Assembly (NCBI GenBank): GCA_023485545.1
Contig: JAMCZI010000028.1
Location: 1-64,000 of the forward strand
DNA length: 64,000 nucleotides
Direction: 5' to 3'
From: Candidatus Martarchaeota archaeon
GTDB lineage: Archaea > Micrarchaeota > Micrarchaeia > Micrarchaeales > Micrarchaeaceae
The number at the start of each line of letters is the position of its first letter. Position 1 is the stretch's first letter. Shown here one piece after another: positions 59,912-62,954 of the stretch. Both the position numbers and the translations under genes were made by a program. The notes beneath the pieces are model-generated. The model had not been told where the DNA came from. It ran no database searches and saw nothing but the letters and a program-made list of their open reading frames with translations.

Positions 59912-61015
59912 ATGGCGAAGGATTTCTACGAAGTTCTGGGGGTAAAGAAGGATGCGAGCGCCGACGATATCAAGAAGGCGTACAGGCAGCTCGCCCTAAA
60001 GTTCCACCCGGACGTGAACAAGTCCAAGGAGGCTGAGGAGAAATTCAAGGAGATAAACGAGGCGTACGCTGTCCTCAGCGATCCGGAGAAGAAAAAGCAG
60101 TACGACGCTTTCGGCCCGGAGGGATTCAACCAGAGGTACACCGAGCAGGACATATTCAGGGGCTTCGACTTCGAGAAGATATTCCGCGACATGGGCATAG
60201 ATTTCGGCGGCAGCCAGTTCGGGGGCAGCATATTCGACAACCTGTTCGGATTCGGCGGTGCGCAGCAGCGCGGCGCAGACGTAGGGAACGATATACTGGC
60301 AGAGGCGAGAATAAGCCTGAAGGATGCGGTTCTCGGCACCAAGAAGTCGATACGCGTCCGACACGTAGTCAAATGCCCAGTCTGCAATGGGACTGGATCT
60401 GAGGGCGGCCGCGTAGTCAAATGCCCGACATGCAACGGCTCAGGCCAGGTCTCGACGACACGAAGATCGATGTTCGGCATAATACAGACGGTATCCGCAT
60501 GTCCCACATGTGGCGGCAGGGGTACAGTTCCAGAAAAGCCCTGCAGAAGCTGCGGCGGCACTGGAAAGAAGGTCGCCGATAACTCGCTGGAAGTGTCTAT
60601 ACCAAAAGGTGTGGACAACGGAACAAGGCTAAGGCTGCGCGGCATGGGCGATTACGGTCGCGACAGGCCTGGCGACCTTTACATAGACATAGCTGTCGAG
60701 CAGGACAAGACCTTCAGGCGGAAGGGATACGACATAGTGACCGAAGTGCGCGTGCCCTTCTACGTATTCCTGCTTGGCGGCACGATAACTGTGCCGACTC
60801 TTACAGGCACTACTGAGGTGAAAATCAAGGAGCTGCAGCAGCCCGGTGAGAACATCGTGCTCAGGGGCCTTGGCGTGCCATACTCCAACACTGCAGGCGA
60901 CGAGATATTGAAGCTAAAGGTTGACATACCTAAGAGAATGACAAAGGAGCAAAAGGAAATGATACAGAAGTTCGCGGCTCTTGACGGAAAGAAAAAGCTG
61001 TTCGGGGTTTTCTAG
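59912..61015 (+). CDS. dnaJ: Chaperone DnaJ
   Basis: [21 protein letters not shown] domain; four CxxCxGxG-type zinc repeats. Confidence 0.97.
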
Positions 61016-61950
61016 TTGGTGCTGCCGAAGCCCTCCCTTACCCTCCTGTGGCTGAATATCTTGAGGTCGTTCTGGTTGAGCGTCTTGCTTCTGCTGCTGC
61101 CATCTATTGCAGCAATGCCGTTCAGGCTTCCATCTGAAAAGTTGTAGCTGAATGCACCTGTGCGCGCTGCTATCCTGTAGCCGCCCAAGTCTACCTCATC
61201 AGTCTTATCTTTTCTCCCGCGATATATCAAAACAAAGCCGTTCATTGAGCTCTTGCCCATATTCACGAGCGTGGGCATGCCCTTCTTTATTCCCTTCAGG
61301 ACGTAGGATATTGTGGCTCCCCCTGCGCCTTTCGCGAGCACTATTGCCTTTCCTTTTGCAAACGTGCCCCTCTTCCCTATGCTGCTGAAGTAAGCCTTTA
61401 CGACTTTGCCCCTGCCATTCTGCTCTTCAATGATTACCGGGGCGGCATCCTCGCGCCTTACCAGCGTTTTCATCTCCGCGAGGCCTATATATGCATTTTG
61501 TGTCTGCTTTACCGCATAAAGTTGGGCTTCCTTAGAGTAGTTGCCCACGCGATCCCAAGCCGGCATCGTGCATTGTGCGTCCGCCCTGCCTCTTGTCGCG
61601 CGTATGTGCATATTTATCTTTTCGCACACTTCTGCAGCGCTGTCCATGTCCCTGAGACCGAAGGAAACAGGCCCGTTGATCCCGCTGGCGCGGAGCATTA
61701 TCTCAAGCCTTCTGATCCTCTTCTCTGCAGACACGTCAGTTATCTCAGAATAGAATATCGAGGTGTAGTTGCTCTTGAACCCGTCCTCGACCATTATGAA
61801 CCTGCGGTTGGTAAGGGCTATGGCCCTGTTCTTTGCAACTCCTCCCAATACCTCGGTGCTGTAAACCAGCTGCTCTTCTGGAAGCAGCAAATGTTCAAAG
61901 CTAGCGAATTTATTTCCCATAAATATCTTACTTTGCTTACTATCCCCCAC
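61012..61950 (-). CDS. PH-like domain protein of unknown function
   Basis: [49 protein letters not shown]. Confidence 0.6.
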
Positions 61951-62226: not shown

Positions 62227-62580
62227 TCACTTTTTCTTGCCTTTCGCCTGGCCGTCATTGTACTTCTTCACGAGCTCTATCGCCTGTTCTACAGCTCTCT
62301 TGACGTCTGACTCCGTTCTCGCGCCTGTGCATATTATCTTGCCGTTCTTGAAAAGCAGGAGAGCAGCCTTGGGCTCAAAAATCTTCAGTATGGCTCCGGG
62401 AAACTGTTCCGGCTCGTAGTCTATGTCCCTTGACAGCTTTGCAAGCCCGTAGAGATCCAGATCTACGTTAAGCGCGGCGCTAGCTACTATGTTCTGTACC
62501 TTGTATGTAGGGTGCAGCTTGACATTCAGGTAATGAGCCTTGGACCTTTGAGGTTTCTGGGGTTTTGGGGATTTAGCCAT
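62227..62580 (-). CDS. Single-repeat TATA-binding protein (half-TBP)
   Basis: YKVQNIVASAALNVDLDLYGLAKLSRDIDYEPEQFPGAILKIFEPKAALLLFKNGKIICTGARTESDVKRAVEQAIELV: one TBP repeat in about 117 aa. Confidence 0.9.
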   Translation of the reverse strand: MAKSPKPQKPQRSKAHYLNVKLHPTYKVQNIVASAALNVDLDLYGLAKLSRDIDYEPEQFPGAILKIFEPKAALLLFKNGKIICTGARTESDVKRAVEQAIELVKKYNDGQAKGKKK

Positions 62581-62669
62581 AATCAGCACCACAACATAAT
62601 GATAATATTAAGAAGGTATATATATATTATGCATCTCATACTCTATGCTGCATCTGCAGAGGGATTCTG

Positions 62670-62954
62670 ATGACAAAGAAATCTAGGGGTTTATTCTCAA
62701 AAAGGTCAAGAAATCTGGCAAGGCACCACAAGCCTTCAAAGCTTAGGGTAAGGGACCTGATAAAGAATTTTGAGGTCGGCGAACGCGTAGCCATAGTCCC
62801 GAAGGGGGGCTTCAACGACATACCACATCCAAGATACCGCGGCAGAGTCGGCGTAGTCGAGGAGAAGCGCGGTTCTGCGTACGTCGTAAAACTGAGGATG
62901 ATGGCCGCCACAAAGACTCTCATAGTGCCCGCCAGGCATCTTGAGAAGGCCTGA
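62670..62954 (+). CDS. rpl21e: Ribosomal protein L21e
   Basis: FEVGERVAIVPKGGFNDIPHPRYRGRVGVVEEKRGSAYVVKL. Confidence 0.93.
   Translation: MTKKSRGLFSKRSRNLARHHKPSKLRVRDLIKNFEVGERVAIVPKGGFNDIPHPRYRGRVGVVEEKRGSAYVVKLRMMAATKTLIVPARHLEKA

Follow-up and report, generated by a model that had tools for sequence, protein, structure and literature searches.

The window, a 64,000-nt stretch at the start of contig JAMCZI010000028.1 of a Candidatus Martarchaeota archaeon, carries a gene for a TATA-binding protein (TBP) with a single repeat. This gene, which we call paralogue A, lies on the minus strand at 62227–62580 and encodes 117 aa from an ATG at 62580 (residues coded by 62230–62580); a GTG at 62592 is an alternative start within the open reading frame 62227–62592. 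The Pfam TBP profile PF00352 matches it in one stretch only, residues 26–107 (62260–62505, minus strand; E = 1.6e-27 / 3.6e-27, the latter for profile positions 2–85 of 85), with 94.5 bits against a curated cut-off of 22.9. Both DNA-kinking phenylalanines of a TBP repeat are present: Phe60 in the QFPG motif (62401–62403, minus strand), invariant across the single, N and C repeats that we compared, and Phe77 in LLLFKNG (62350–62352, minus strand), invariant across all compared repeats. The chain ends in a basic tail, NDGQAKGKKK (62227–62259 on the minus strand, with the stop codon), which has low confidence in the predicted model. On the other side of an AT-rich intergenic segment (62581–62669) that by its sequence holds the putative promoters of both genes, rpl21e is transcribed divergently (62670–62954, plus strand; PF01157, 5.4e-14), its start 89 bp from the tbp ATG; the gene is kept beside tbp in relatives. 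Downstream of tbp, at 61012–61950, is a bacterial PH domain protein (bPH_3, 1.8e-7), which is strong at this position only in close relatives. We found no second TBP repeat near the gene. The locus thus agrees with the original prediction, which had described one complete repeat in about 117 aa, retention of both repeat-type phenylalanines, and no room for another repeat beside the divergent rpl21e.

Canonical archaeal and eukaryotic TBPs consist of two fused repeats in about 180 aa and sit on DNA as a pseudo-symmetric saddle. Paralogue A, with its one repeat in 117 aa, lacks the two tandem repeats of such a chain, and scores 61–85 bits against the NCBI two-repeat TBP models, whose cut-offs are 181–347. 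Across three congeneric genomes its repeat differs by 1 or 2 non-synonymous versus 21–30 synonymous changes, a dN/dS of 0.006–0.012, which implies a strongly constrained gene. Together with conservation across families, this rules out reading the gene as a pseudogene or a frameshifted remnant.

The source genome (761,826 bp in 32 contigs, 78% complete) contains two TBP matches and no more, both of them single repeats in separate frames. The second, paralogue B (contig C6, 21559–21804), sits away from the rpl21e locus, often near a glycosyltransferase gene, and has a dN/dS of 0, with zero non-synonymous changes in the repeat among the three congeners. A second half-TBP that might serve as a partner, as the original prediction had envisaged, is therefore present in the genome, although the pairing itself is our inference. 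No two-repeat TBP frame was found in this 78%-complete genome, nor was its transcription factor B (TFB). The incompleteness of the assembly gives some room to the view that paralogue A is a specialised or decaying copy and that a canonical TBP was missed elsewhere, as does one relative, G012, in which a canonical 185-aa TBP on contig C43 accompanies both single-repeat genes (L003). That protein, however, is like those of other archaea in sequence, and contig C43 is probably a contaminant, even with its close GC content (0.411 vs 0.43). Strong purifying selection on paralogue A also speaks against this view, and the complete or near-complete genomes of relatives refute it for the clade: G037, G039, G010, G011, G027 and G032/A_DKE lack a two-repeat TBP. 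We therefore reject the idea that the assembly missed a canonical TBP, and regard this whole explanation as extremely improbable. The search for a full-length TBP that had been proposed for the genome and its relatives turned up none in the source genome or the complete relatives, and the decay, frameshift and canonical-copy-elsewhere explanations that the original prediction had set against itself fail on the same selection and genome data.

The single repeat is not a peculiarity of one genome. Among 60 relatives surveyed, nearly every genome of family f1 has a pair of single-repeat genes, and those of family f2 have one or two; in a wider draw from f2, 41 genomes had one TBP match and 34 had two (the second of G059 being a partial duplicate). 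G037 (3 contigs, 97% complete) and G039 (one contig, 771,545 bp) each have one TBP candidate with one repeat. The complete chromosome of ‘Ca. Micrarchaeum’ sp. A_DKE (NZ_CP060530.1) has two single-repeat genes and no other TBP; this organism, ‘Ca. Micrarchaeum harzensis’ A_DKE, is cultured together with a Thermoplasmatales host (PMC8975820, PMC8623467). Single-repeat frames occur in 15 sampled Micrarchaeota families (f1, f2, f8–f11, f13–f15, f17, f19, f21, f22, f24 and f25) and two-repeat frames in 11 (f3–f7, f12, f16, f18, f20, f23 and f26), and the Diapherotrites phylum (19 genomes) has mostly single-repeat TBPs. In about 80 other archaeal genomes, nearly all TBPs among the matches listed are two-repeat frames of 180–270 aa; a search of viral contigs turned up a two-repeat viral TBP but no relative with a single repeat. 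The canonical TBP that should accompany an accessory paralogue is absent from the source genome (G000) and from six relatives. The single-repeat TBP is the only TBP of its lineages.

The survey also brought up several unusual TBP-fold proteins. Genomes of family f11 carry three single-repeat TBP genes (L078, L079 and L035 in G083; L077 in G088), and in G088 two of these genes, whose repeats are identical, share a contig and are separated by about 1 kb. Within the two-repeat family f6, G137 has a single-repeat TBP (L042; G137:C11:137433-137675), where either a renewed loss of one repeat or an assembly collapse of near-identical repeats is possible. L204 comes from G296, a Diapherotrites-labelled genome that groups in another phylum and holds the only clear single-repeat TBP there; it may reflect misbinning, transfer or another retention. 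Many genomes of that phylum (G337, G402, G414 and others) have, beside their two-repeat TBPs, a divergent TBP-like protein of about 95 aa with a single repeat (20–31 bits). In the Diapherotrites phylum, G310 has a normal two-repeat TBP and also a 726-aa frame in which four divergent TBP repeats precede what looks like a membrane segment and one more domain (L305; G310:C8:8000-12000). A protein of G316 (L307; G316:C1:23300-25000) has two divergent TBP repeats behind a lipoprotein-like signal (LAGC); this TBP fold is possibly outside the cell, perhaps with a role in DNA capture.

The core of the AlphaFold model of the paralogue A monomer has a pLDDT of about 87–90, and the predicted lobe superimposes on one lobe of archaeal TBPs with an rmsd of 0.9–1.1 Å (1.0–1.1 Å over 77 columns for 1mp9, 0.9–1.0 Å for 2z8u). 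On this model, paralogue A has the TBP lobe fold. The DNA-facing residues N30, V32, F60, a basic residue at 66, L75, F77, I83 and T85, together with the YEPEQ stirrup, are all present in A and nearly all in B; from general knowledge of TBP structures, we take the former set to contact DNA and the stirrup to be used by TFB. Compared with the canonical TBPs 1mp9, 2z8u and 1ais, the half-TBP thus shares the repeat fold, the DNA-kinking Phe pair, the N/V/L/T DNA-facing residues and the stirrup, and in relatives it likewise co-occurs with TFB and with promoters containing a TFB recognition element (BRE) and a TATA box. It differs in having one repeat rather than two, and in carrying A63 where canonical repeats have L, V or I, and K78-N79 where both canonical lobes have S79. 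For G311, a near-symmetric two-repeat relative whose N and C repeats are 81.5% identical, the predicted structure is a full saddle (pLDDT 91.7; TM about 0.9 to solved TBPs), suggesting that two such lobes are geometrically sufficient when tethered.

The TFB of relatives is ordinary, with a zinc ribbon and two cyclin repeats. In G039, a motif search over 248 upstream regions (400 kb) recovers AAgcTTTATATA, which is a BRE with a TATA box after it, from 47% of them, with an LLR of 173 against at most 38 in shuffled sequences. In G039 the TATA part is 8 bp long and nearly its own reverse complement, and the BRE is the asymmetric part; in A_DKE, the motif search returned a GC-centred BRE-like motif without a clear TATA matrix. 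Since G039, with its one TBP gene, keeps an ordinary TFB and BRE-plus-TATA promoters, a dimeric saddle is the most likely working form of the half-TBP, and we infer that it bends DNA and recruits TFB in this form. Two copies would join non-covalently on the TATA box into the usual saddle. The pair would be A/A in genomes with the A gene alone, and either A/A or A/B in Micrarchaeales that have both. TFB would dock on the stirrup of one partner and, by touching the BRE on one flank, would set the direction of transcription; where both genes are present, an A/B heterodimer could restore asymmetry. A single lobe by itself does carry the full half-site set of DNA contacts plus the TFB-facing stirrup, and might conceivably act as a monomer on half a TATA box with TFB supplying the remaining grip. 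We consider this very unlikely: the one-gene G039 keeps an 8-bp, nearly palindromic TATA box that fits two lobes, and lineages with two fused copies gain what is predicted to be a normal saddle.

The symmetry of the TATA box cannot be used as proof of a homodimer. Worked out by hand from the motif matrices, the self-similarity is about 0.89 in the single-repeat G039 and about 0.90 in the two-repeat G106, so we rejected that argument. This leaves the earlier suggestion that a symmetric TBP shifts promoter polarity onto TFB and the BRE only partly upheld: the asymmetric BRE beside a near-palindromic TATA box in G039 is as expected, but the TATA box of a two-repeat relative is equally palindromic.

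What the original prediction did not foresee is a re-made two-repeat form in sister lineages. In a neighbourhood survey, divergent rpl21e adjoins the main TBP gene in both single- and two-repeat Micrarchaeota and in most Diapherotrites; this common locus implies that the single-repeat gene is the TBP ortholog and that repeat number changed at one locus. In a species tree built from one marker, EF-2, two-repeat genomes are nested among single-repeat lineages: those of Micrarchaeota fall together within their phylum (99/99), as do G310 and G311 within Diapherotrites (99/92), and two changes explain the repeat-number state. (The EF-2 match of G167 on C39, L110, falls in two pieces, profile positions 5–35 and 32–716 in one 1250-aa frame, pointing to an intein-like insert of about 500 aa early in the frame.) The N and C repeats of two-repeat Micrarchaeota are 58–79% identical in most families and 37–58% in the divergent f12, f16 and f18; those of two-repeat Diapherotrites are 82–83% identical, and those of 29 other archaea, with canonical TBPs, 35–57.5% (mean 50%). 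Canonical TBPs space their two repeats 91 residues apart in 28 of 29 cases and 90 in the other. The two-repeat Micrarchaeota have spacings of 92–97, with 94 the value in 12 of 17, and the two-repeat Diapherotrites have 92 or 94. All repeats of the clade share a signature that is rare in canonical repeats (A63, K78, N79 and, mostly, an aromatic in the leader). In repeat trees, which have only 81 columns per repeat, the clade's single, N and C repeats form a group of their own (98/94 to 100/94) that no canonical N or C repeat joins, and forcing its N repeats onto canonical N is rejected by the AU test (p = 0.0013). From these sequence comparisons, the two-repeat TBPs of the sister families look to have been re-duplicated independently of the canonical duplication.

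The same similarity between repeats could instead have arisen if an ancestral, canonical-style two-repeat gene was homogenised by gene conversion, its now near-identical repeats recombined, and one repeat was lost many times independently, today's two-repeat genes being the leftovers. For f6 and f23, the repeat tree joins a gene's N repeat with its own C repeat, and such pairing within several two-repeat genes makes within-gene conversion possible; the single repeat of G137 within f6 suggests that loss can happen. But position-matched repeats of related families cluster (f4/f5, f20, f7/f12), indicating that conversion is not constant, in no case do the spacing and leader match the canonical 91, and by our own count this account takes about nine losses on the EF-2 tree versus one loss plus two gains. 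We regard it as unlikely, though it is the chief reason for caution about re-duplication. Independent re-duplication fits into the reading of the whole that we consider likely, in which the half-TBP is a general TBP that pairs into a saddle oriented by TFB and the BRE, with a single repeat as the ancestral form and re-duplications later. The single repeat would then be the ancestral state of Micrarchaeota and Diapherotrites, and the two-repeat TBPs of derived families would have arisen at the rpl21e-linked locus by fresh tandem duplication, distinct from the event behind canonical archaeal/eukaryotic TBPs.

The single-repeat stage may be older still. In the third phylum, to which G296 belongs, two-repeat TBPs carry the clade's signature residues in both lobes, with a spacing of 93 or 95 and N/C identities of 41–64%, and their repeats group with those of the clade (100/95); AU tests speak against their orthology to canonical repeats (p = 0.03–0.04). 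This grouping suggests that the single-repeat stage may predate Micrarchaeota and Diapherotrites. As to how it arose, the group lies, weakly, next to canonical N repeats, which suggests loss of a C repeat; AU tests tracing the single repeat to canonical N or C gave p = 0.14–0.29 and do not tell reduction from a relic. A bolder account holds that the single repeat descends unbroken from the original, pre-duplication TBP and that the canonical duplication followed the split from other Archaea, so that a dimeric one-repeat TBP would be the ancestral archaeal state, still in use, and two-repeat TBPs would have evolved at least three or four times. Its separate origins would be those of canonical Archaea and eukaryotes, derived Micrarchaeota, derived Diapherotrites and probably the third DPANN-like phylum. 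Several observations are in keeping with it: single repeats are equally near canonical N and C (65/69, 67/62 and 58/65 bits), repeats of the three DPANN-like phyla form one clade apart from both (100/95), and the AU test does not reject a three-way split with canonical N monophyletic (p = 0.14–0.24). The archaeal root is also open in published analyses, some of which place DPANN as sister to all other Archaea, although DPANN monophyly is debated (PMC12329446). In the best trees, however, the group adjoins the canonical N repeats, close to that of Sulfolobus (93/88), and we think this account quite unlikely.

Archaeal proteins with a single TBP domain (‘monopartite’ or ‘single lobe’) were reportedly noted by Brindefalk and colleagues in 2013 (NAR gkt045), as cited by Ravarani et al. 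2020. Ravarani et al. (2020) themselves devote one sentence to the existence of archaeal TBPs with a single lobe, giving neither lineage nor role (PMC7221094). The proteins described here likewise have one TBP domain in an archaeon, but they are the only TBP of whole families. The single-copy TBP-fold domains of RNase HIII and DNA glycosylases share the fold in one copy; the half-TBP has no significant structural match to them (E about 0.6, vs 4e-7 for TBP) and is not fused to an enzyme. The poxvirus factors VETF-l and VITF-3 also depart from the canonical two-lobe architecture, but they are expanded and asymmetric where the half-TBP is halved (PMC12917281). DPANN papers list TBP simply as present (PMC8407392, PMC8204110), and TBP goes unmentioned in the main texts of the papers on A_DKE and of recent ones on Micrarchaeota. 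In the part of the literature covered, we found no report of a single-repeat TBP as a lineage's only TBP, or of its re-duplication. Archaeal single-lobe TBPs as such had been mentioned before in passing.

TBP is the universal factor for starting gene transcription, and the duplication of its repeat is thought to have been a single event in the deep past. A single-repeat protein that serves as the sole TBP, with apparently independent rebuilds of the two-repeat form in sister lineages, opens that step to study in living cells. Half-TBP lineages offer a way to test whether a TBP can work when symmetric, what determines promoter direction, and what is gained by fusing two halves and letting them diverge. 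The apparent independent re-duplications would serve as natural replicates, and A_DKE is a carrier of the trait that grows in co-culture.
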